Positions 1-21,324 of a DNA stretch of 21,367 bases are shown piece by piece. Source of the DNA: a virus. How positions within the stretch are numbered: the stretch's first letter is position 1; the number at the start of each line of letters is the position of its first letter. The stretch spans positions 1-21,367 of IMG/VR virus record IMGVR_UViG_3300035698_000864. One strand, 5' to 3'. The position numbers were made by a program, and so were the translations under genes. Below the pieces are notes generated by a model. That model made no database searches, was not told the origin of the DNA, and saw only the letters and a program-made list of their open reading frames with translations.

Positions 1-200
1 CCTTGCACACCTTGGGTGCCTTGTAAGCCTCGTGGGCCAGTACCGACGTCGATCCAAGCGGATCCATCAGAATATTTTAGCGATCCATCATCAGCATAAA
101 CTAGAGCACCTTCATACGGTACGGGATCTAGTTGAATAGGAAACGCTAATGGTATTCCATGTCCTAATGTAGTAGTTTTACCGCTTAAGGTCTTAAACAT
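1..200 (-). CDS. Collagen-like phage fibre protein, N-terminal part (cut by window edge)
   Basis: Only the first 66 codons and two bases of the next are inside the window; the gene runs off the left edge. Translated from the minus strand it begins MFKTLSGKTTTLGHG. A short globular segment follows, containing ALVYADDGSLKYSDGSAWIDVG (split here: ALVYADDGS at 32-40, then LKYSDGSAWIDVG at 41-53). From residue 55 it enters Gly-X-Y triplets: GPR, GLQ, GTQ, GVQ, G. Such collagen-like tracts are common in phage tail fibres and form trimeric shafts, so a fibre or fibre-tip role is inferred. The start is chosen as the second of two adjacent ATGs (200-198) because a GGAGG at 211-207 lies 6 nt upstream of it but only 3 nt from the first (203-201). 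The gene overlaps the stop of the preceding 141-residue gene by 8 nt, so translational coupling is likely. The length and C-terminal domain are unknown. Confidence 0.8.
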   Translation of the reverse strand, partial: MFKTLSGKTTTLGHGIPLAFPIQLDPVPYEGALVYADDGSLKYSDGSAWIDVGTGPRGLQGTQGVQ

Positions 201-618
201 CATCTTCCTCCGACTGACCTAACGTATATGAAATCGTAGCGTTAAGTGCGTCATTCGAGCTGCTTACTATTCTCAATTCATCACCTGATTTAAAAAACTG
301 GCCGTTAAGAGGTAGAGCATAAGTTTCATTAGCAGGTATCTGTAAATTACTTACGAGATTAAAACGCAAGCCTGATGGCCATCGTTCTGTAATTACACTC
401 ACGGTTTCTGTATTAGCTGATGTATTGCAGACAATCAACGGGCTGATTACTTCACCTACACCGTCCTCGACAACAGTTGACCCGCCGAAAACCAATTCAG
501 GTACTTCGTATTGTGGTACTGAAATCAATACTTTTTCTACCGTTGTTACTACTACATTAGCAATGACTGGTTTCGCATCAGGTGCCTGCGAGGTTGTGAT
601 TATATTTGGTATTGGCAT
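193..618 (-). CDS. Small beta-rich virion-associated protein, function unknown
   Basis: This is a 141-residue protein that I do not recognise by name. It is rich in Val, Ile, Thr and Ser with alternating hydrophobic residues, as in a beta-sandwich. The segment LPLNGQFFKSGDELRI (102-117), following IVCNTSANTETVSV (62-75), resembles small proteins found near tail-fibre genes of marine T4-like phages, where the pattern suggests an Ig-like or jelly-roll fold. There is no signal peptide or membrane segment. It sits between a giant adhesin and a collagen-like fibre gene: 17 nt after the former, with its stop overlapping the latter's start by 8 nt. An AAGG lies 9 nt before the ATG. A structural or adaptor role in the distal tail is inferred from position only. 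The acidic tail (EEDD) is partly a by-product of encoding the next gene's ribosome binding site. Confidence 0.75.
   Translation of the reverse strand: MPIPNIITTSQAPDAKPVIANVVVTTVEKVLISVPQYEVPELVFGGSTVVEDGVGEVISPLIVCNTSANTETVSVITERWPSGLRFNLVSNLQIPANETYALPLNGQFFKSGDELRIVSSSNDALNATISYTLGQSEEDDV
207..211 (-). promoter_or_regulatory. Ribosome binding site deciding the start of the collagen-like gene
   Basis: The minus strand reads CGGAGGAAGATGATG. The GGAGG is a strong Shine-Dalgarno sequence embedded in the last codons (Glu-Glu-Asp-Asp) of the upstream gene. Two in-frame ATGs follow. Spacing of 6 nt favours the second (200-198) over the first (3 nt). Because the site lies inside the upstream reading frame, the two genes are probably translationally coupled. 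Confidence 0.6.
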
Positions 619-635
619 TTTATTTAACCTTGTTG

Positions 636-3600
636 TTATATGTTTGCTCTACTGTTAGATGCTCTTCTTGCAAGTTTTCTTACAGATGAAGTAAATGGTC
701 GACCTTCAATTCGTCCTGTTCTACCATTAATTTTTAATCCACGAGCAAAGTATTGGTTGTTCAATTCGTCCGATCCACTCCATCTAACACGTCCACCATC
801 TTCTGATAGTACAGATGCTGATGCAGATATTGGCTGACCTATGTTTCTGAAGTTCAAAGGTAATGCCGTTCTGTTTACACCCGCAGATGCACCGTTAAAC
901 TGGTGAGCAATTGATTCCACTAAGCTTCCGAAGGTCAATACGTCAGGAGTAAGAACTCCTTGTATCAAAACTTCTTCGATTAATCCATTTAACATATTTA
1001 TACTGTCCTGTTTCGGAGAAACTTCAAGCGCGTCCAAATAATTTTCTTCCATGAATACTTTCATTCGTCTCCAAGATAAGTAAAACGCTTCTAATAATTC
1101 AGTATTATTAGGACCGTCTAACACCCAACCTGCAGGCTGTGAACCATTACCTGCAGGATCAGCACTCCAATAATAGATGTTTCCATCATAGAAGTTAGTA
1201 TCTAATGCATTTTGATTCGGCACCGCAATATAAGCGTGATTTACCTTTTGACCAGAAGTCGGCAATCCACCAGTACCAATAACAGTTCCCATGAATTTAA
1301 GACCAGAAGTTGCTGGGTTGAACACAGGGAATACATGAGTTCCGTCATAATCAAACAATGAAGCGACGAAAGTTCTTGTAGCTTTTTGTGATCCGAATGT
1401 ACCAAATACAGAACTGTCAGTCTTAAAGTCGTTAGCAAGTGTTGTTATTAAGTTTCCTGCATCACGTCTAGTCAGTTCAAGATTGTAATATTTAAATTCA
1501 GCATTAACAAATCTAACAACTTCTTGTGCAAGTGATTTCTTGCGCAAGTCAAGTATAGTTTTTGTTCCTACGAATTTGCTTGATTGCCACGTGTAATCAG
1601 GTTCTTCAAGTAACGGCAATTTCTTAACGTCATTATTTATTAATGTGTTGTAGAATATGTTTGCAAGTTTCTGTACCTTTTCAACTTCAGCAATAGTAGC
1701 AAGTTCGCTATTTGTTGTTTGGTTAACATGTTTGCCAATCAGAATATCAGCACATATTCTACCAAGTTGTCTATACGAAAGCGCAGTTGCTTCTCTTTGA
1801 TTTTCTGGTATTCTTAGTATGTTATTCCAGAAGTAAAAATCAGCATTCCATCTAGATGCTGTATTACCACCATAGTTAAGATCGAAACTAAATGCATCAA
1901 GTAAATAAATTGAATCTCTAGCACATTTTGTTTTATCGTAATCAAGTACTGAATATTCTGTATTAATCCATTCTACCATATCATCAGCAAGTATTTCTGA
2001 ATTCGTATCTATAGTTGCAACCGCATTTATCACGTCTGCGTCTACCCAACTCGTATCAGGCTGAACCGTAGCAGGTATACCAGACAATGAATTGGCACGA
2101 ATAACGTCTTCGATTATTCCTATTAACGAGGACACCGTAGCTCCTTCAGTTGCCGTTGCTGGTGTAGAACCAACTACTTGTTGTGTAGATGTGTAAGTTA
2201 AGTTTTCTGTGTCTGTTTCTACTACGATATCAGATAACAGATTTGCCATATAAGCATAAACGTCTGCAGTTTGAGATCTTGTAAATTCAGGAAGCACACT
2301 CACACCACTTTCGAAGTAGATTTGAGCGACAATTTTAGTTGCAATATTCCCATCGTATTGCACATCATGAGAAACGGCGTCAACGATAAGGCCAATGTCT
2401 CTTTGGCATCTATCTACAGGGAATGATAAACCATTCTGATTGATTGCTATATATTCAATAACACCTTCAACCAACACGTCGATTTGATCTTCAATCAATT
2501 CTTTAGACACTATATAATTTGGTGCGACCCAAGAAATATCAGGTTCTACTCTTACAGGAAGGTTAGAACTTGTTGACTCATTAGATACATTGGCAACAAT
2601 AAGTGCAAGTTGTTTAGCATCACGAGCAATATCTTGATTGGTAGCAATTTCAGAAACGTCTTGTGTAATCAGATTACCTTTAGATATAGTAACTGGAACA
2701 TTGAATACAACCTTTTCTATTACGTTTGCTAATCTTGTTAACGCAATTTTAGTAGGTTCTCTTTGAGTCAGAGGTAATATATTTACTGCATTAGAGAAGT
2801 AAATTTGCGCGGCATTTAAAGTTGCTGTATTACCGTCGTACTGAATATCATGAGAAACAGCATCAACTATATAGCCGATATCTCTTCGGCATTTTTCAGA
2901 GTCGTAAGCAAGACCGTTGAACTTGTTATTAATGTAAGTTATCACATCAGTCTGTTGCTTAGATATAGCACCTTCAATTTCAGAAACGGCAGTAACATAA
3001 CCACTAGCATATGCCGCAGATGGTTCTACAAGAACAGGTAATGAATCTAAATCACCTGCAGTAACCGCATCAGAAACGATATTGATTAAACCTTCAACGA
3101 CAGTACCGAGTACACCACCAGCAGAACCAGCAGCAGTATCTTGAGTTTCAGAATTACCCGCAGTAGGAGTTACTGTTGATTCTTGTACTATTAAATTAGC
3201 AACAGATGCTATATGCGCAAAAGTATCCGCAGTAGGTGCTCTTTGTTCAACAGGTAAAATGCTAACAGCATTTTCAAAATAGATAATTGCATTCTGTATA
3301 GACGCAGTATTGCTACCATGTGTAACGTCGAATGAAACTGAATCCACTAAGTATCCAATGTCTCTTGAGCATTTTGTCTCGTCGAAAGTTAATGCAGGAT
3401 AATTCGCATTAATATAGGCAATTGCTTCAGCTTGTAAGAACAATTTATTTCTTTGTAATTGTGTATTTGCGTTAGCATTATTACCACTTGCAGCAGGTCC
3501 GCCATAATCAATAGCAGATGCCTCTGAAGCACCCAGTGATAAGATCTTTATAAGTTCGCCAAATGCATCTGTTGTTCTACTTTTCGCGTCACCGTCCGAT

Positions 3601-6600
3601 ATTGAATTTAAAACATTGTCTCTTACGAATTCAATAGCGTTTACAGTTTCAGTTAACTGCTCAGATATGACAAGATCAGTGCCTGCAGTGCCAGAACGAT
3701 ATGCAAGACCTGCAAAAATTGTATTGAAATTAGAACCTGTAACAACATCACGCTTAACCGCATTCAGTATATACGCAACATCTCTGCTACATTTTTCGCC
3801 GTTATAAGTGAAGTATCTATCGTCTAAATATTTTACAATCTCTTCTTGAAGGAATGATTTGTTATTTTGTAGTATTTTTCTAGCAAAGGTTCTGTTAGAA
3901 TCAAAAACAGGGTTAACCAGTTCAGGTGTAGCTAATTCCGTATCATCAACTACGTTAGCAATACTCAGAACAAGATCTCTACCTGCAGACGCGACTGCAG
4001 CTGCGCCAGCGACACCACCAAAATCTTGCGTTTCGGTTATTGCGCTTACAGGCACAACTACATTATTTCTAATGACGCTTTCGATTACTGTTGCTAAATG
4101 TCTGAATGATTCCTTTGTTGGATCTCTTTGATCCGCAGGAAGTATGTTAACTGCATTAGCAAAATAATATTCTATTGCCTTTACAGTATTTGCGTTGCCG
4201 CTATATTCTAAATCTTTTGAAACCGCGTCCACGACATAGCCTACATCTCTTTGGCATAATTCAGCATTATATTCTAAATCAGGATAATTATCTTCGATCC
4301 ATGCGATATTTTCTTCTTGAATAAACGATCTGTTTGTTTGTAATCTTTCTCTTGCATATTGTCCATTCAAGGTTACGCCTACCAATGCAGGATCGGACCA
4401 TGTGACAGCATCAGCAGCAGCTGTTCCATTACTCATTATATCAATAAGTTCGTCGAAAGCGGCGTTAGATCTGTTAACAGATGGAGTATCAGTAGCAATT
4501 AAATTCGATACTTTAGTCTTCAAATCAGATACAGCTGCAACCGTTTCTGGCAGTTCGTCGTTTATTACTTGACTTGCGGTAGCTGCGTAATATGCAACAC
4601 CTGATTGAATAGAGTTGAAGTTAGTACCCAACGTCATATCTCTCTGTACCGCAGGAAGTATATACTGTTCAACATCACGGCTGCATTTATTAGAGTCATA
4701 GATAAAATAAGTATCTTGAATGTAGCCCATGATGTGGTCTTGAATATAAGATCTATTCGCTTGTAGTTGGCGACGAGCATTTAATTGATCTGCATTTATT
4801 GCTACGTTATCACTGAATGTTATTCCAGTTGAAGGTCCATTTTCTAATACAGTAACAATATTGTCGAATGCATCATCAGCTCGATCTGTCGCAATAAATG
4901 ACCCAGACAGATCTAACAATTCGTTAGTTTGATCTTTCAGTCTACGGTATGCACCGATTGTCTCATCTTTTTGATTTCCAAGAACCTTAGAAGCGGTTGC
5001 CATATAATAAGCATTCCCTGCTGTGATAGAATTATAGTTCGTATCTAACAAAGTGTCATATTTTACAGCAGGTAAGATATAATCAGTAGTATCACGTTTG
5101 CATTTAGTACTGTTATAAGCAAAGAAGTTCTCATTATCTTCGATCCAATCGATGAATTCGTTTGCGATAAGATCTTTATTATCTTGAATTAATGTTCTTG
5201 CAGCAGTTCTGTCAATATTACCAGTATCAGCAAAAATTATATCATTTGCGGCAGGTTCGCCATTTTCTAATATGTTTATAGTTTCATCGAAAGAAATAGC
5301 AGTACGTGAATTTACTTCAGCATCTGCATTAGCAAATAACCTGTCCACTTGACCACGCAAGTGATTGATTGCGGCAGTCGTTTCTGTTAACTGATCATTT
5401 ACTACTATATAAGATATCGGACTGCGGTAAGTTATACCATTGAGACGTCCCCAGTAGTTAGTATCTAATGCAACATCATAACCTACATTACTCACAAGAA
5501 TGCCAGTGTCTCTTTCACACTTGTCTGCGTTGTATCCTGTATAACCTAATGAAGTATCTAAATAATTTACTAAGTCGTCTATGATATCGTCTTTATTTTG
5601 TTCTATAGTTTCGGCAAAATTTACATCTTGAATAATGTCAGCGGTTGTTGATTTTGGTTGATAAACCTCAGTAGAACCTTTTGCTCTCATCGAGATATCG
5701 CCAAATTGCGTACCGGAGTTGTTAAGTGTCATCTGTCCGCCATTCAGCGCATAGAAAGCACATCGAACAAATATAGATAGCGAACCAATTCCGTTTACAC
5801 CAGCGCCGTCTCTTGCAACATATCCCATACCGTTCTGTGTACGTGGAGTAGCACCAAAACATAGGAAATAAGTGTATAAACTATCTGGGTCAAGTTGTCT
5901 TCTGTCGGCAAGTACTACACCACCGCCACGACCAACTAATTTGTTAGGGAAGTCCTCTTCGCCCAATTCCAACACGACACCACTGGCGCCATAGTTAGTA
6001 ACGATTAAGTCACCTGAATTAACTTCACCTTTTAAGTTTCTTACATAAATGACATTTTCAGTAGTAAGTTCGTCTAAACGGCTTATATAACCAAATGCAC
6101 CAGACGAGAATGTTACTTCATCATCAACCTCGAACGATCCAGTGGTCGCACCATCAAGAGTTATCATGTTTCCTAAGTCATCTATCGTGCCTTTACTATT
6201 GAAAGGCTGTAACGGCGGCTCAACGTCATCTCTTCTAAAGTTTGATAGTTGTGTACAATCCCGCGTATATGGAGATCTTCTTAATAACGCACCAGGTCTA
6301 TAAGCAACACCGAAACCTTGCTCTGGATAATCAAAGTTATCTATTTCAAAATTCTGGAAAGAAAAACCTTGTACATAGCCACCAGAACCTACTAAGATCC
6401 CGTTAGTTTTTGAAAAACCTTCTTCCATCTCGATTACAGTTGCATATTGCCCAGCGGATGAAGTTATAGCACAATCATCTGGTATAGGCACAGGTTCTCT
6501 TAAATAATAAGTACCAGGTCCCACAGATATATGTACTGCGTTGTTTACGTCATTTCTATTGAAGCTACCACCTGCCTTTTCAAGTGCGATTTCTGAAGCG

Positions 6601-7532
6601 CGCTTTAAGGTCTTAACGGGTTGTAATATTGTCGCTGGATTGTTGTCGTCGCCATCAGCTGATACATAAACCTTTAATGCAGATTCAGTAGTTTTTGATA
6701 TTTCATCAAAGAATTGCTTATAAGAGAACTGCTCAGTTTCGCCAGTCTTTGCATTTTTAAGCGCAAAATATGACTCTTCATCTAATAGGTCTTCGAACTT
6801 GTTGTCGAGTTCCATATCGAAGTCAACAAGTTTTGACTTGTCGATTATACCTTCTTTAAAGGTTGCGTTTGTTATGACACTACCATCGATATCAGTGTTA
6901 GCAATTGCTGAATCGATTATATTTAGATTTGATGCTGTAGAGTCTTTTAATTCGCCATCGGCAAATGTAGTATTTGCTACATTGAAGTTTGTGATTTCAC
7001 CTTGTTCTAATATAGTATTGGTGAATAGATTAGTATCACCAATTCCGTTATTAAACTCTGAATTACCTATTACGGTTGTTTCTATTGTTGAATCTTCAAG
7101 CGTAGAATTGATAATAGACACATCATCGAGCGTAGATTCTATTATTTCTGAATTTGATAGGCGCACTGTTATACCATCAACATCGTCAAGCGTACCTGAA
7201 CTAAATTCTGAGTTCGTAATATCGCCTAGATCGAAAGTTGATGTGGTCAGTGATAAGTTTGTTGCTGATGAATCTAATATAGATCCATTATTGAATTCTG
7301 AATTCTCGATAACGACTGAATCGATATCTGAATCTGAAAGAACAACATCACTAATGTTTCCACCAGTAATTTGGATTCTGTCGAATTCTTCAAATTGAAT
7401 AGCTTGAACCAATTCTCTACGAGTTATGCTTTTTGTCCCGTCGTCACCTTGTACTAGGTTAACAACAACAAACAAGTCTTCTGGTCTCGTATTTGAACCG
7501 GTAATGGGACCTAATTCTGTAATCTTAGACAT
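636..7532 (-). CDS. Giant repeat-built tail adhesin / virion structural protein (2298 aa)
   Basis: This probable tail-fibre or peripheral baseplate protein has four visible parts. Residues 1-56 form an N-terminal head. Residues 57-236 are 18 gap-free decapeptides (NSEFNNGSIL type), suggesting a beta-helix shaft. Residues about 285-630 look like a right-handed beta-helix (pectate-lyase-like) module, with KVYVSADGDD, PVKTLKRASEIA and VGPGTYYL. Residues about 635-2061 are nine K-C-x-R-D units plus one degenerate unit, followed by a C-terminal module ending in RGLKINGRTGRIEGRPF and a basic tail. K-C-x-R-D units occur in large structural proteins of marine T4-like phages; their role is not established as far as I know. 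The start has a good AAGGAAAGGT ribosome site. The gene follows the S74 fibre gene after 72 nt, the largest gap in the window. There is no signal peptide and no enzymatic motif I can defend. Host-surface binding is inferred from architecture and position. Confidence 0.88.
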   Translation of the reverse strand: MSKITELGPITGSNTRPEDLFVVVNLVQGDDGTKSITRRELVQAIQFEEFDRIQITGGNISDVVLSDSDIDSVVIENSEFNNGSILDSSATNLSLTTSTFDLGDITNSEFSSGTLDDVDGITVRLSNSEIIESTLDDVSIINSTLEDSTIETTVIGNSEFNNGIGDTNLFTNTILEQGEITNFNVANTTFADGELKDSTASNLNIIDSAIANTDIDGSVITNATFKEGIIDKSKLVDFDMELDNKFEDLLDEESYFALKNAKTGETEQFSYKQFFDEISKTTESALKVYVSADGDDNNPATILQPVKTLKRASEIALEKAGGSFNRNDVNNAVHISVGPGTYYLREPVPIPDDCAITSSAGQYATVIEMEEGFSKTNGILVGSGGYVQGFSFQNFEIDNFDYPEQGFGVAYRPGALLRRSPYTRDCTQLSNFRRDDVEPPLQPFNSKGTIDDLGNMITLDGATTGSFEVDDEVTFSSGAFGYISRLDELTTENVIYVRNLKGEVNSGDLIVTNYGASGVVLELGEEDFPNKLVGRGGGVVLADRRQLDPDSLYTYFLCFGATPRTQNGMGYVARDGAGVNGIGSLSIFVRCAFYALNGGQMTLNNSGTQFGDISMRAKGSTEVYQPKSTTADIIQDVNFAETIEQNKDDIIDDLVNYLDTSLGYTGYNADKCERDTGILVSNVGYDVALDTNYWGRLNGITYRSPISYIVVNDQLTETTAAINHLRGQVDRLFANADAEVNSRTAISFDETINILENGEPAANDIIFADTGNIDRTAARTLIQDNKDLIANEFIDWIEDNENFFAYNSTKCKRDTTDYILPAVKYDTLLDTNYNSITAGNAYYMATASKVLGNQKDETIGAYRRLKDQTNELLDLSGSFIATDRADDAFDNIVTVLENGPSTGITFSDNVAINADQLNARRQLQANRSYIQDHIMGYIQDTYFIYDSNKCSRDVEQYILPAVQRDMTLGTNFNSIQSGVAYYAATASQVINDELPETVAAVSDLKTKVSNLIATDTPSVNRSNAAFDELIDIMSNGTAAADAVTWSDPALVGVTLNGQYARERLQTNRSFIQEENIAWIEDNYPDLEYNAELCQRDVGYVVDAVSKDLEYSGNANTVKAIEYYFANAVNILPADQRDPTKESFRHLATVIESVIRNNVVVPVSAITETQDFGGVAGAAAVASAGRDLVLSIANVVDDTELATPELVNPVFDSNRTFARKILQNNKSFLQEEIVKYLDDRYFTYNGEKCSRDVAYILNAVKRDVVTGSNFNTIFAGLAYRSGTAGTDLVISEQLTETVNAIEFVRDNVLNSISDGDAKSRTTDAFGELIKILSLGASEASAIDYGGPAASGNNANANTQLQRNKLFLQAEAIAYINANYPALTFDETKCSRDIGYLVDSVSFDVTHGSNTASIQNAIIYFENAVSILPVEQRAPTADTFAHIASVANLIVQESTVTPTAGNSETQDTAAGSAGGVLGTVVEGLINIVSDAVTAGDLDSLPVLVEPSAAYASGYVTAVSEIEGAISKQQTDVITYINNKFNGLAYDSEKCRRDIGYIVDAVSHDIQYDGNTATLNAAQIYFSNAVNILPLTQREPTKIALTRLANVIEKVVFNVPVTISKGNLITQDVSEIATNQDIARDAKQLALIVANVSNESTSSNLPVRVEPDISWVAPNYIVSKELIEDQIDVLVEGVIEYIAINQNGLSFPVDRCQRDIGLIVDAVSHDVQYDGNIATKIVAQIYFESGVSVLPEFTRSQTADVYAYMANLLSDIVVETDTENLTYTSTQQVVGSTPATATEGATVSSLIGIIEDVIRANSLSGIPATVQPDTSWVDADVINAVATIDTNSEILADDMVEWINTEYSVLDYDKTKCARDSIYLLDAFSFDLNYGGNTASRWNADFYFWNNILRIPENQREATALSYRQLGRICADILIGKHVNQTTNSELATIAEVEKVQKLANIFYNTLINNDVKKLPLLEEPDYTWQSSKFVGTKTILDLRKKSLAQEVVRFVNAEFKYYNLELTRRDAGNLITTLANDFKTDSSVFGTFGSQKATRTFVASLFDYDGTHVFPVFNPATSGLKFMGTVIGTGGLPTSGQKVNHAYIAVPNQNALDTNFYDGNIYYWSADPAGNGSQPAGWVLDGPNNTELLEAFYLSWRRMKVFMEENYLDALEVSPKQDSINMLNGLIEEVLIQGVLTPDVLTFGSLVESIAHQFNGASAGVNRTALPLNFRNIGQPISASASVLSEDGGRVRWSGSDELNNQYFARGLKINGRTGRIEGRPFTSSVRKLARRASNSRANI
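1350..5630 (-). repeat. Array of nine K-C-x-R-D protein repeats plus a degenerate tenth
   Basis: Each unit is read as a helix-like segment (pattern NRSFIQEENIAWI), then Y-x-x-x-K-C-x-R-D, a [I/V]-[L/V]-x-[A/S]-V-x-x-D segment, a T/G-N-x-x-[S/T] turn, and a second helical part. Cysteine codons start (lowest coordinate) at 5517, 5100, 4683, 4254, 3789, 3369, 2889, 2406 and 1923, which are residues 672, 811, 950, 1093, 1248, 1388, 1548, 1709 and 1870. The spacings are 417, 417, 429, 465, 420, 480, 483 and 483 nt. A tenth unit near 1465 keeps RRD but has lost the cysteine (ELTRRDAGN). Two subtypes are visible: short units with TNYNSI/SNFNTI, and long units with GNTAT plus ILPxxQRxPT. Array edges are approximate. 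Confidence 0.85.
6825..7364 (-). repeat. Tract of 18 consecutive decapeptide repeats encoding a probable beta-helix
   Basis: Residues 57-236 of the giant adhesin can be written as 18 lines of exactly ten residues with no insertion or deletion. Examples are DSDIDSVVIE, NSEFNNGSIL, TSTFDLGDIT, NSEFSSGTLD, NSEIIESTLD, DSTIETTVIG and NTTFADGELK. Positions 1-2 are mostly Asn/Asp/Thr-Ser/Thr, position 4 is hydrophobic (Phe/Ile), and positions 7-9 alternate small and aliphatic residues. Ten is twice the five-residue step of pentapeptide-repeat helices, so a narrow solenoid shaft is a reasonable inference. NSEF(N/S)(N/S)G recurs in lines 3, 6 and 11. Confidence 0.85.
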
Positions 7533-7598: not shown

Positions 7599-7606
7599 TA
7601 TTTATT
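7599..7606 (-). promoter_or_regulatory. Candidate T4-type late promoter (AATAAATA)
   Basis: The minus strand reads AATAAATA, one base from the T4 late -10 consensus TATAAATA. It overlaps the TAA stop of the S74 fibre gene and lies 66 nt before the ATG of the giant adhesin, in the only sizeable gap of the window. T4-type late promoters need only this element, which is recognised by a phage sigma-like factor with the sliding clamp. Position supports the call, but AT-rich DNA makes chance matches common. Confidence 0.4.
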
Positions 7607-7886
7607 ACTTTCCTAATTCATCTACCTTAATTTGAAGTTCTTTTATCGCTTCTATTAATAGCCCGACTATGTTGCCATATCGTACGGCTTTAAGTTTATT
7701 GCCGTTTTCGTCAACGTCATAGATATAAACAGCCTCTGGTAATACATTTTCTAATTCTTGTGCAATTACGCCAACCATTCTTTCGTCGGGATTGTCTTTA
7801 TAGTTAAAAGTATAACCATTTAATTGCGAAAGTTTTTCGCCAGCACCGCTAATAATTTCTATATTTTCTTTCAATGAAATGTCTGA
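7605..7886 (-). other. S74 chaperone domain with predicted self-cleavage site at its 5' end
   Basis: This region encodes residues 249-341 of the fibre gene. The family nucleophile serine starts the motif S-D-I-S-L-K, with lysine five residues later, as in endosialidase and L-shaped tail-fibre chaperones. G-V-I-A-Q-E-L-E and V-R-Y-G-N-I are the other conserved blocks. If cleavage occurs, the mature virion fibre would end at residue 248. Confidence 0.75.
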
Positions 7887-8630
7887 TGCAGAACCATTAC
7901 TCGTTATGTCACCAGTAATTGTTAAATTGCCAGTTAATGTACCAGATTGGTCTGATCTTAAAAATTGTGTAGAGGATAACCCACCAAGTGTGTCAGCATC
8001 TGCACCGCCGTCGGCATTTATAGGTATTACACCACCAACTGGCGCACCGAACGATATATTGTCACCAGCACTAAAGGCTAATTGCGCAGCTGCAACACCA
8101 CGCTCATCGGTGAAATATAATGCAGAAGCATCTTCTGCGACTTCAGCTGTTGTTAATCCTAAATCAGTATCGCCAGTAACTACTAGACTCGGTACTGTCA
8201 ATTCACCACTTGGAGTAAGCGTAAATTTGAATTCGCCTGCGCCAGTATTCAACACAAAATTGTTATTTGTGTTATTGTGAATTCCGACGTCCCAAGTTAA
8301 TGAGTTGGAAATGTATTGAGTTCTGCCGCCTGCAGCATTATCAAAGATTGCGCCTACTTGATCAGCAGGTTGAATCAATAAAGGAGCATTGACGCCTATT
8401 TGAACCCCGGTAGAAACGACGATATTATCAACATTCAAATCATTTAGTATAGTTAAATTGTTAGCTGTAAGGTTGCCATCTAATATAGCATTACCTACAG
8501 TAGTGTCACCAACACCAGACGATGCTGTTAGCGTCTCGTCTTTAAAAAGATTGACTAAGTCGTTAGTTTTATTCAACCAATCTTGAAAGGTGTCTGTGTT
8601 TTCTAAAATTGCTATTAGTGGCTTTGCCAT
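7605..8630 (-). CDS. Tail fibre/spike protein with C-terminal S74 intramolecular chaperone
   Basis: This is a 341-residue fibre protein. The N-terminal segment (TDTFQDWLNKTNDLVNLF, 12-29) resembles attachment regions of marine phage fibres. Residues about 45-240 are repetitive and beta-rich (LTANNLTILNDLNVDNIVV, 55-73; TSTQF-type strands near 220) as in a trimeric shaft. The last 93 residues match the peptidase S74 / endosialidase-type chaperone: SDISLKEN, GYTFNYKD, RMVGVIAQELENVLPEAV, then VRYGNIVGLLIEAIKEL and a terminal helix. In this family the domain trimerises, folds the shaft, then cleaves itself off using a Ser-Lys dyad in S-D-x-x-L-K. Here these would be Ser249 and Lys254, with cleavage predicted between Ala248 and Ser249. 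The gene starts 3 nt after the 58-residue ORF. Receptor binding is inferred. Compared with typical S74 fibres the receptor-binding part is short. Confidence 0.88.
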   Translation of the reverse strand: MAKPLIAILENTDTFQDWLNKTNDLVNLFKDETLTASSGVGDTTVGNAILDGNLTANNLTILNDLNVDNIVVSTGVQIGVNAPLLIQPADQVGAIFDNAAGGRTQYISNSLTWDVGIHNNTNNNFVLNTGAGEFKFTLTPSGELTVPSLVVTGDTDLGLTTAEVAEDASALYFTDERGVAAAQLAFSAGDNISFGAPVGGVIPINADGGADADTLGGLSSTQFLRSDQSGTLTGNLTITGDITSNGSASDISLKENIEIISGAGEKLSQLNGYTFNYKDNPDERMVGVIAQELENVLPEAVYIYDVDENGNKLKAVRYGNIVGLLIEAIKELQIKVDELGK

Positions 8631-18238: not shown

Positions 18239-20086
18239 TTATTGGAAGTTATTGTTTGTTGATGAATTAGAACTTGCAGTAGAATTTTCTTCCACAGTCA
18301 CATTAACCTTCACATCATCGTCTCTTACAATAAAGACGCGGCCTTTAGGTGCTTTGATATCATTGTTAGCAGTCGTTGCTGTTATCTTGATTGCAGACCC
18401 AACGAACGAATCAACTTTAAAATTAACCAATTTAACTTCTCCGGTTTTATAATCAACAGTACCTGCAGTAGGATTTACTATAGTCGGGTTAGTGAGATCG
18501 TCAGTTATTAATTGAATATTACCCACTCCATCGTCTTGTAAGAACATGCATGAATTGCCAACGTCAAATAAACTACTTTTTATCGCAGGTTTGAAATCAA
18601 CAAATCCGTTTGAATCTTTATAAGCATAAGGCTTAACCAATTCAGTAGAGAATTTAAAAGTAGGATTAGAAGCGATCTTAACTACAGGCGAAAATTCAAT
18701 GATAGGTTTAGCCGTTATGAAGTTACTCTGTATAGCAGTATCAACATCGTCTATCGCTTTTGACAACTTTGATAATCTTAGAGTACGATTAAAGTCTTCC
18801 AAGTTATTATCTGAATAATCTTTGATTGCATTACGCACTAATTGTTCTACTTCGCCTAATGACTTCGTTGCCAACTTCGAGGTGGTAGATACCTTCACAT
18901 CTAAACTAGCATACAAAAACTTAGTGGATATGAAGATAGGTTCGATACTTAAAGGACTGCGCGAATCAAGATATTCTATATAAGAATTTGATAAAGTCGT
19001 TGCAACCAATTGAGCATCGTCTTGTAAGTATACCGATATTGCAACTTTACCAAACTGAGGTGGTTCCAATTCATCGCCGCCGTAAGCAGATACCGCAGAT
19101 ATTTCTGGGAATTTTTGCTTCAATAGTATCTCATAATCGCTTGTCGTGATAGCGCGTTCTTGTATTTGAGTTGATTTTGGCGCAAAGAAGCGAATGCTTT
19201 CAATCGATTCTCTTTCAGCACCACCTAACGCACGAGCTATCGTTTCGACGTTTATTGTAGCACCGTCTAAGAAACTTGCGTTGAATCCAATAGCACCGTT
19301 GGCTTCTGCACCGCTGGTAACTCTATATTTAACTCTAACATCTTCAAACTCTTCAGGTTGTTGGCCGAATACATTTCTACCAAAATAGATAGAATATCTA
19401 TCGTCGAAGTACGGTTCAACGTAAAACACTTTATCTGTTGGTCCTACGCCGAATATTGTGCTAGAATAAGTATAGATATTTTGATCTTCGGTTTCTTCTG
19501 CGTCCACAAATACTACGAGCGAATCTGTATCAACCGTTTCGTTTGTTAATGCTATTCTCAACACACCATCTTCGTCTACGATGAAACCTTCTCTTTCGAA
19601 AGAATCTAGCATAGTACCTTCATAGATCGTAATGTTGTCAGTAACAAAAACGCCGTTGGCAATTTTTCTAGCTATATAAGTTTCATTAGTAACGAAATTA
19701 AAACTTACACCTTCGAATGAAGTAGTGAACTCTGAATACTGCGGGATGACTATCGTCTGGCTAGTATCGCCGACGAAAGTGTTTATGGTTAACTTCACAA
19801 TAGCACGTGCTGATTTTCGCGACCTTGGAAGATAGTTTAGTTCCTTTGCGTGGGATGCTAAAGAGTTTTTCAACCTCGCAGAATCTAAGAACATTTCTCC
19901 TAATGCCATATTCGTATAGAAGTTATTTTGAAAGCTGTTGTAAGCTAATACATCAAGTATCGCATTCATGTTAGACCCATCAAAATCATAATCTTTAAAT
20001 TGTGATTGAGTCTTCATATAACTTTTTAATTGCGACTTGATACCTTCAAAATCTAATTCTGTAATCGGAGTTGTTGGTTGTGCCAT
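18239..20086 (-). CDS. 6: Baseplate wedge protein gp6
   Basis: The protein is 615 residues against 660 for T4 gp6. The N-terminus carries ELDFEGIKSQLKSYM, FDGSNMNAILDVLAYN (35-50), NNFYTNMALGEMFLDSARL (54-72) and LASHAKELNYLPRS, the strongly conserved block of T4-type gp6. The central part has the features of baseplate J-like proteins: VDTDSLVVFVD strands, YSIYFGRNVFGQ, and RAITTSDYEILLKQKFPEIS. The latter is the conserved 'R-A-x-T-x-x-D-Y-E' motif of the J/gp6 family, which joins adjacent wedges into the inner baseplate ring. It starts 1 nt after the gp25 stop (TAA A ATG) with AAGGAT 9-10 nt upstream inside gp25, suggesting coupled translation. The C-terminus is Asn/Ser-rich and probably disordered. 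Confidence 0.93.
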   Translation of the reverse strand: MAQPTTPITELDFEGIKSQLKSYMKTQSQFKDYDFDGSNMNAILDVLAYNSFQNNFYTNMALGEMFLDSARLKNSLASHAKELNYLPRSRKSARAIVKLTINTFVGDTSQTIVIPQYSEFTTSFEGVSFNFVTNETYIARKIANGVFVTDNITIYEGTMLDSFEREGFIVDEDGVLRIALTNETVDTDSLVVFVDAEETEDQNIYTYSSTIFGVGPTDKVFYVEPYFDDRYSIYFGRNVFGQQPEEFEDVRVKYRVTSGAEANGAIGFNASFLDGATINVETIARALGGAERESIESIRFFAPKSTQIQERAITTSDYEILLKQKFPEISAVSAYGGDELEPPQFGKVAISVYLQDDAQLVATTLSNSYIEYLDSRSPLSIEPIFISTKFLYASLDVKVSTTSKLATKSLGEVEQLVRNAIKDYSDNNLEDFNRTLRLSKLSKAIDDVDTAIQSNFITAKPIIEFSPVVKIASNPTFKFSTELVKPYAYKDSNGFVDFKPAIKSSLFDVGNSCMFLQDDGVGNIQLITDDLTNPTIVNPTAGTVDYKTGEVKLVNFKVDSFVGSAIKITATTANNDIKAPKGRVFIVRDDDVKVNVTVEENSTASSNSSTNNNFQ

Positions 20087-20505: not shown

Positions 20506-21324
20506 TTATGCTCTTAATGGTCTTAAATCTAAATGTAGGTATCCATCAAATGATCTTATGAATTTAAACCCTGATCTTAATGCTGCATTCTCTAGCGATT
20601 CCACGTCCCAACCATCAGTGCTAATATCAACACATAATCCACTCAGATGTGCAGATTCTGGTGCTCCGTTAATCTTGTTATATTCTTCGCTCACCCAACC
20701 CAATCTAACATTTATTTTAGGTTGACTTGTCGATGATGGTTCAGCTTGACTCCACATTCTTATTAAATAAACTCTAAGTGTTGGATCAAGCCCCGTCCAT
20801 CCTTTCATTCCCAATAGCGGGTCGTCTAGCCATTTGCCGCTTACTGATATTATTTTGCTTGTGCCAGACTTTATGCTATTGCAATTTGGTATCTCTAAAT
20901 ATTCGCTCACAGAAGGTTTTCTAGGATTAATAGGTTCATTTCCTGTTGGCGTAATTACGGCACCGCTTCTGCCTTCCCATAACGATTCAATACTATTTAT
21001 ATTCGCCTTACGAAGTTCTGGCGGCATTCTTATCGCACCTGCTCGCAATGCGGTTGACGTTGTAATGTTCGAAATAGTCTTTAACCTGTTTGCAATCCGC
21101 AGATATTTAAATTCAAATTGCTTCATAGGCGTTGTAACATCATTAACCAATGCTTCTATGTTAGTTAAATAGGCGCAGATTCTAACAACTAAGAATTCGA
21201 TTTGTGCTATACTTGGATTTGTAAATAAACTTAAGGCATAATCGAAGGCGCCCAAAACGGTAGCTACAATCAACGATTTGTTATCTTCAGAAAACATATG
21301 ACAGGCGTTGTCTTTCTCTTTCAT
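20506..21324 (-). CDS. Baseplate-cluster protein with C-terminal M15-type peptidase motif (possible tail lysin)
   Basis: The C-terminal half shows the metal-site pattern of M15 (D-Ala-D-Ala carboxypeptidase / L-Ala-D-Glu endopeptidase) enzymes: S-A-H-L-S-G-L-C-V-D (His226, Asp233) and Y-L-H-L-D (His264, Asp266), with Asp260 nearby. In the family S-x-H-x-x-G-x-A-x-D and the final His hold zinc. Cysteine replaces the usual Ala at 231. Residues 1-110 form a helical domain (NACHMFSEDNKSLIVATVLG; FLVVRICAYLTNIEAL) with no clear relative. The protein sits directly before gp25/gp6, where T4-type phages keep hub and lysozyme genes, so a tail-associated peptidoglycan hydrolase is inferred. There is no signal peptide. 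The frame stays open for 14 codons upstream of this ATG to the window edge (ending TFVDELTIRGI), and the GAGG before the ATG is only 4 nt away, so the true start may lie outside the window. Confidence 0.75.
   Translation of the reverse strand: MKEKDNACHMFSEDNKSLIVATVLGAFDYALSLFTNPSIAQIEFLVVRICAYLTNIEALVNDVTTPMKQFEFKYLRIANRLKTISNITTSTALRAGAIRMPPELRKANINSIESLWEGRSGAVITPTGNEPINPRKPSVSEYLEIPNCNSIKSGTSKIISVSGKWLDDPLLGMKGWTGLDPTLRVYLIRMWSQAEPSSTSQPKINVRLGWVSEEYNKINGAPESAHLSGLCVDISTDGWDVESLENAALRSGFKFIRSFDGYLHLDLRPLRA

Follow-up and report, generated by a model that had tools for sequence, protein, structure and literature searches.

The window, by which we mean the whole stretch of DNA analysed here (the 21,367-base virus record IMGVR_UViG_3300035698_000864, with positions counted over that whole stretch), carries all of its major genes on the minus strand. 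They encode a baseplate-side protein, gp25, gp6 and two more wedge proteins of the baseplate, a DUF4815 protein of 1832 aa, a tail fibre of the S74 type, a giant protein at 636-7532 and a 141-aa protein. By this gene content, the window covers baseplate and tail-fibre genes of a T4-like phage. A 272-aa protein beside gp25 (window 20506-21324) gave a weak C-terminal Peptidase_M15 match and is possibly a baseplate lysozyme analogue. The 141-aa protein (window 193-618), which lies directly downstream of the fibre gene and for which the family search gave no match, is a candidate fibre-associated protein.

The gp6 of the window (18239-20086) is nearest to that of the Sinorhizobium phages phiN3/phiM12 (39%), and phages of methylophilales, pelagibacter, Stenotrophomonas, Caulobacter and cyanobacteria follow at 32-35%. 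In addition, no psbA was found in the 17 related records of the window clade. A cyanophage origin of the window is consequently doubtful and a cyanobacterial host improbable; because its gp6 is nearest to phiN3/phiM12, the phage may rather infect an alphaproteobacterium.

The giant protein is indeed a single chain of 2298 residues, as a sequence-only reading of the DNA had claimed: the reading frame at 636-7532 runs on the minus strand and is free of internal stops. The same reading had proposed a long composite fibre, which is well supported by the baseplate-gene setting with gp25 and gp6, by matches to PHROG tail-fibre families (E 1e-65 and 8e-57) and by the annotation of the related S-SCSM1_26 from phage S-SCSM1, which has one CxRD unit, as a virion protein. 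With the PHROG match, the baseplate-gene setting and its tandem CxRD units, the protein belongs to the giant CxRD tail fibres known from T4-like cyanophages, and it presumably mediates adhesion. Its conserved N-terminus is probably the end that attaches to the virion. The layout is collected in Table 1.

Table 1. Features of the giant fibre gene and of its neighbour in the window.
Feature	Residues	Window position	Strand	Basis
Giant tail-fibre gene, 2298 aa		636..7532	-	
Conserved N-terminus, M-S/A-KISELxPITG...	1-50	7383..7532	-	alignment
Pentapeptide-repeat solenoid	about 51-240	6813..7382	-	PF13599, Foldseek MfpA/Qnr/AlbG, period 5
Conserved beta-rich module	262-636	5625..6749	-	conservation, monomer model
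Unit 1, CxRD at 672	647-785	5178..5594	-	motif, motif-blind HMM
Unit 2, CxRD at 811	786-924	4761..5177	-	motif, motif-blind HMM
Unit 3, CxRD at 950	925-1067	4332..4760	-	motif, motif-blind HMM
Unit 4, CxRD at 1093	1068-1222	3867..4331	-	motif, motif-blind HMM
Unit 5, CxRD at 1248	1223-1362	3447..3866	-	motif, motif-blind HMM
Unit 6, CxRD at 1388	1363-1522	2967..3446	-	inside modelled phycobiliprotein-matching stretch
Unit 7, CxRD at 1548	1523-1683	2484..2966	-	motif, alignment, model
D, N, Y of unit 7	1562, 1568, 1578	about 2799-2849		
Unit 8, CxRD at 1709	1684-1844	2001..2483	-	motif, alignment, model
Unit 9, CxRD at 1870	1845-1995	1548..2000	-	motif, alignment, model
Degenerate unit 10 + beta-containing insert, Cys->Thr (TRRD)	1996-2170	1023..1547	-	
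Near-invariant C-terminal module, ...RRASNSRA	2171-2298	639..1022	-	
Neighbouring tail fibre, C-terminal Peptidase_S74 chaperone		7605..8630	-	E 4e-15

Behind the N-terminus lies a solenoid, which had been described as 18 lines of decapeptides. The solenoid itself was recovered, but its period is five, with about 38 pentapeptides; 32 of the 38 positions i hold I, L or F, and a small residue stands at i-2. PF13599 matches it with E 6e-7, but at 29.8 bits this stays under the Pfam cut-off of 38. Many pentapeptide-repeat proteins, among them MfpA, Qnr and AlbG, were found among the best Foldseek matches of its model, so that we reject a decapeptide solenoid as a special class in favour of an ordinary pentapeptide repeat. 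The length of this solenoid differs among relatives. The following module had been read as a pectate-lyase-like beta-helix. What stands is a conserved module with 65-73% identity; profile and fold searches of residues 262-636 gave no pectate-lyase, PDB-profile or Pfam match and no match to any beta-helix family. As a monomer it is mostly predicted with low confidence, and residues 455-526, predicted as a small beta domain, reach a pLDDT of about 85. At the other end of the chain, the claimed conserved C-terminal module proved near-invariant in 46 relatives, while PDB and Pfam searches with it gave nothing informative.

Between these modules the predicted K-C-x-R-D array of nine plus one units is present, with nine intact motifs and one degenerate copy, T-R-R-D at residue 2021; the leading lysine is found in only seven of the nine. 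The motifs are spaced by 139-161 aa, and the units fall into two subtypes of about 140 aa (units 1, 2, 3 and 5) and 151-161 aa (units 4 and 6-9). This array goes far beyond what chance would produce: its units share an aligned signature, and an HMM that was blind to the motif, with the CxRD columns masked, finds 834 units in 74 proteins. An origin of the array by chance or artefact is ruled out by 115 relatives of the giant protein in the IMG/VR scan, with conserved N- and C-termini. We kept 80 of these, 56 of which are complete (47 unique sequences). The complete relatives begin near M-KISELxPITG, finish in RRAS-SRA, span 2221-4177 aa and are mostly longer than the window protein. Nine motifs were counted in three of them, 11 in 24, 12 in 28 and 18 in one, which bears out the proposal that the arm can grow or shrink by unit number. 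The longest array seen belongs to the 4177-aa relative with 18 CxRD motifs (L061, 5385-17915).

The units also occur in cultured phages. The unit region of SRSM4_214 is matched by 346 cultured phage records, all but one of which are cyanophages by name, the other being a marine virus. Foldseek of the model of residues 1363-2298 in a viral library returned cyanophage tail proteins, with E down to 5e-11 among the named ones. No match to the C-terminal 259 aa (window:636-1415) or to the N-terminal 640 aa (window:5613-7532) was obtained by tblastn against cultured phages at E 1e-5. CxRD units were seen in further giant cyanophage proteins of about 6200-8600 aa (L212, L213, L214, L216, L218), which are labelled hypothetical, structural or 'baseplate wedge initiator', and PHROG 701 puts a related protein in its head-and-packaging category; the annotations of giant CxRD proteins are thus inconsistent.

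What are these units? The first lead came from weak PF00502 Phycobilisome matches on CxRD units in a Pfam scan of long relatives. When a profile built from 32 cyanophage units was searched against all PDB sequences, phycocyanin alpha came out on top (E 2.2e-6), and the best 60 of 85 matches were all phycobiliproteins. The alignment covers about 65 residues from helix B to E and places CxRD on C84-x-R86-D87. In five whole cyanobacterial genomes, all nine matches of this profile at E<=0.01 were phycobiliprotein-family genes, each falling within a place that PF00502 also marks. Conversely, the Pfam Phycobilisome family was found on 8 of the 32 cyanophage units (best E 2.4e-7), with any other family on at most one. 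For the units of the window clade the direct signal is weaker. PF00502 matched 7 of 64 (best E 0.0083; any other family at most two), and no single window-clade unit reaches the curated cut-off, 17.9 bits in L061 against 22.2. The profile of these 64 units found phycocyanins in 10 of its 13 PDB matches, at E 0.16 or worse, and a further direct search gave E 0.6. The homology is therefore firm mainly via the cyanophage units. Both sets of units are one family (hhalign P 1e-28; E down to 1e-21 in a separate search).

Comparison of both unit sets with 37 cyanobacterial phycobiliproteins by hhalign gave probabilities of 88-92% and P of about 1e-6. The observed score of 44.1 compares with at most 23.6 for 200 column shuffles of the phycobiliprotein alignment and with 9.1 upon reversal. 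After shuffling in 10-column blocks the scores averaged 34 and reached 45 at most, against the observed 44, showing that the motif region of about 20 residues carries much of the profile score. With CxRD masked, the alignment boundaries were identical and the score lay above all 100 nulls; with wider masks, it exceeded 99 and 97 of 100. Searched against the 74 phage proteins, a phycobiliprotein HMM found 552 domains, 492 of them with CxRD (best i-E 1.9e-6); the reversed proteins gave 47 domains, the best at 0.51.

Additionally, residues 1363-2298 were modelled as a monomer with template-free AlphaFold2 from a 46-sequence alignment. The model has a mean pLDDT of 66; the array is nearly all helical, the helices lying mostly at 70-90, with about five helices per repeat and without the X-Y helical hairpin. 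In a Foldseek search of the PDB, the model matched phycoerythrins and phycocyanins with probabilities up to 1.00 and TM-scores of 0.58-0.69 (target), superposed at about 3.2 A over 147 columns. The E-values of 0.1-1 belong to a long query, and hemoglobins were also matched. With moderate confidence, the model thus assigns the units a globin-like alpha fold. Taken together, the array units are very probably distant homologues of phycobiliproteins and bilin-binding globins. We call them distant homologues and not phycobiliproteins since single window-clade units miss the Pfam cut-off, the X-Y hairpin was not seen and their pigment is a proposal. Of the giant repeat adhesin that the sequence-only reading had envisaged, the modular composite fibre stands, but its array is not an anonymous adhesin repeat.

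The bilin of phycobiliproteins, which are coloured antenna proteins that harvest light in cyanobacteria, is a linear tetrapyrrole, held by a thioether linkage to the cysteine, with the arginine and the aspartate as bilin partners. CXRD holds the bilin in phycobiliproteins and is also found in BBAG-1/3, which bind bilins without lyases (Rockwell et al., PMC10151467). Judged from their alignment, the array units retain this candidate bilin-attachment site. In the 834 units of the motif-blind HMM, the triad C84/R86/D87 is conserved at about 96-98% where the residue is aligned (C 735/766, R 750/768, D 744/768). Exceptions are mostly the T-R-R-D copy that ends the array, in which R and D are retained. 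Within residues 647-1995 of the window protein, nine of the ten cysteines are those of the CxRD motifs. Relative to the cysteine, the units also have a D at +14, an N at +20 and a Y at +30 that are nearly as invariant as CxRD; these are not phycobiliprotein signatures and argue against an unaltered inheritance of the site.

Genes for bilin chemistry are found near several of the giant fibres. In Syn1, S-CAM1, S-RSM4, S-PM2, S-WAM2 and Sf-CH3, the giant CxRD fibre gene is preceded on its own strand, at a distance of 0.7-1.8 kb, by cpeT, a bilin-lyase homologue; the identities to Syn1 CpeT range from 100% down to about 37%. In Sf-CH3, pcyA (phycocyanobilin:ferredoxin oxidoreductase) is placed between cpeT and the fibre gene. 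Match positions suggest a like layout in S-RIM32, S-RIM44, S-CAM3, S-CAM4, S-H9-1, S-H9-2, Sf-FR1 and ACG-2014e/h/i/j; P-HM1 and P-HM2 are exceptions, with cpeT away from the units. It is possible that the adjacency is inherited synteny with no functional meaning. Heme oxygenase and bilin reductase genes are adjacent on the contigs of two relatives, L008 and L002, the latter being the closest complete relative of the window protein with the same nine-unit layout. Adjacent genes for heme oxygenase and a ferredoxin-dependent bilin reductase (FDBR) stand at L085 1492-2744 and L086 1447-2802, in two uncultured relatives of the window phage in which no psbA was found. A bilin reductase (FDBR) was detected in 2 of the 17 window-clade records, and cpeT in none of the nine tested. 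With no cpeT or psbA found in the records searched and so few reductases, the bilin supply in the window clade is uncertain. A strict coupling of bilin genes to units was rejected on these counts and on P-SSM2, which encodes bilin genes and is without units.

Light-dependent adsorption in Synechococcus phages was reportedly described by Jia et al. in 2010, and S-PM2 is said to be among those phages. With the unit profile, 11 matching places were located in S-PM2 and 6 in P-HM2, against none in P-SSP7, P-SSM2, HTVC008M, phiM12 or T4. Adsorption is confined to the light in some cyanophages (PMC7112961, PMC5082946); P-HM2 shows no adsorption in the dark, whereas P-SSP7 infects in the dark (PMC7112961). 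The presence of units fits this pattern, but the behaviour is known for three phages, which is no proof, and one of them, P-SSP7, is a podovirus.

We propose that a T4-like aquatic phage uses the protein as a very long tail fibre, which would be attached via its conserved N-terminal end and stiffened by the pentapeptide-repeat solenoid. For its arm we picture nine domains with the globin fold, kin to phycobiliproteins and bilin-binding globins, and a decayed tenth copy; the length of the array varies between relatives. During assembly in the infected cell, the units would bind a bilin covalently at the CxRD cysteine, either unaided, as the BBAG globins do, or helped by a lyase, for instance the CpeT whose gene lies beside the fibre gene in several Synechococcus phages. 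The bilin would be taken from the host or made by phage heme oxygenase and bilin reductase. With a bilin supplied and bound, the finished fibre would carry pigment, which may stabilise or photo-gate it. As a whole, a bilin-carrying fibre of phycobiliprotein-like domains is our best explanation, and we give it an even chance. The carriage of bilin by the units is itself an even bet, and gating by light through a fibre bilin we consider unlikely.

The alternative that we take most seriously, though we rate it somewhat below even, is that the units are true descendants of phycobiliproteins or globins that are free of pigment. They would then serve as a helical repeat spacer, in which C-R-D, like D(+14), N(+20) and Y(+30), is kept for folding or for packing between units. 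The extra phage-specific invariant residues, which suggest a structural network, speak for this, as do the five helices per repeat, which suggest remodelling for tandem packing, and the absence of bilin genes from most of the window-clade contigs searched. A mere spacer fits poorly with a cysteine that about 96% of the aligned positions retain and beside which the array has hardly any other, with a loss of this cysteine mainly in the terminal decayed unit, where R and D are retained, and with cpeT and pcyA adjoining the fibre in several cyanophages.

Two further readings appear very improbable to us. The conserved cysteine could serve another chemistry, such as the binding of metal or heme, or the covalent linking of fibre chains to one another; one cysteine per unit along the fibre could indeed link neighbouring chains, and heme globins were among the Foldseek matches. 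But the R at +2 and the D at +3 match bilin contacts, and the general unit alignment shows no conserved histidine for heme ligation in its invariant columns. We give equally little credit to the idea that the units are unrelated helical repeats whose CxRD likeness arose by convergence on a short helix motif. The large part of the profile score that some 20 residues at the motif contribute and the weak direct E-values of the window units would agree with it, yet it has to face the whole-genome specificity of the cyanophage-unit profile (9/9), a PDB match that extends over about 65 residues, helix B among them, at E 2e-6, a register that is regained with the motif masked, and the fold match.

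In summary, we obtain a predicted fold, and a possible chemistry, for giant proteins whose annotations say no more than tail fibre, structural or hypothetical. A bilin-binding globin family inside phage tail fibres is new; a search of 5.39 million open-licence articles gave no earlier report of phycobiliprotein-like or globin-like phage fibres, although such a negative is not proof of novelty. The units tie together two puzzles: the light-only adsorption of some cyanophages, and the presence in phages, even in some with non-photosynthetic hosts, of genes for bilin synthesis and bilin lyases, whose purpose was left open (PMC11480375). It is now testable whether virus fibres bear pigments and whether these explain attachment in the light only. 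One may go further and speculate, as a doubtful extension, that many aquatic T4-like phages are chromoprotein virions with tandem bilin-loaded fibre domains and that the adsorption of S-PM2 and P-HM2 is gated by light; if true, phage cpeT, pcyA, pebS and heme oxygenase/PcyX would at least partly serve the phage's own fibre, beyond the host antenna.

Among known systems, the giant cyanophage fibres are distant kin of the window protein: S-PM2p091 (T4-GC 830), the S-PM2 short tail fibre (T4-GC 734) and SRSM4_214, with PHROG 4527 and 5342. They have the tandem CxRD units in common with it (five in S-PM2p091, six in SRSM4_214) at an array identity of about 23-25%. S-PM2p091 also has parts of the beta-rich module (29% over residues 287-394) and, in an internal stretch, of the C-terminal module (40% over residues 2203-2284). 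The window protein differs in its pentapeptide shaft, its nine intact units and a C-terminal module at the very end. Phycobiliproteins go unmentioned in the annotations of these cyanophage fibres. With MfpA, QnrB1 and AlbG the window protein shares the five-residue solenoid at residues 51-240, which here is the shaft of a phage fibre and implies no functional likeness to them. Like phycobiliproteins (PF00502; phycocyanin alpha, TIGR01338), the units show the helix B-E profile, a predicted globin-like fold and C84-x-R86-D87; unlike them, they stand in tandem in a virus fibre, have about five helices and their own invariant D, N and Y, and carry a putative chromophore. The BBAGs, or bilin biosynthesis-associated globins (PMC10151467), offer CxRD in BBAG-1/3 and a precedent for bilin binding outside light harvesting, and are found with heme oxygenase/FDBR genes; they are single-domain bacterial proteins outside virions, whereas the phage units are domains of a fibre.
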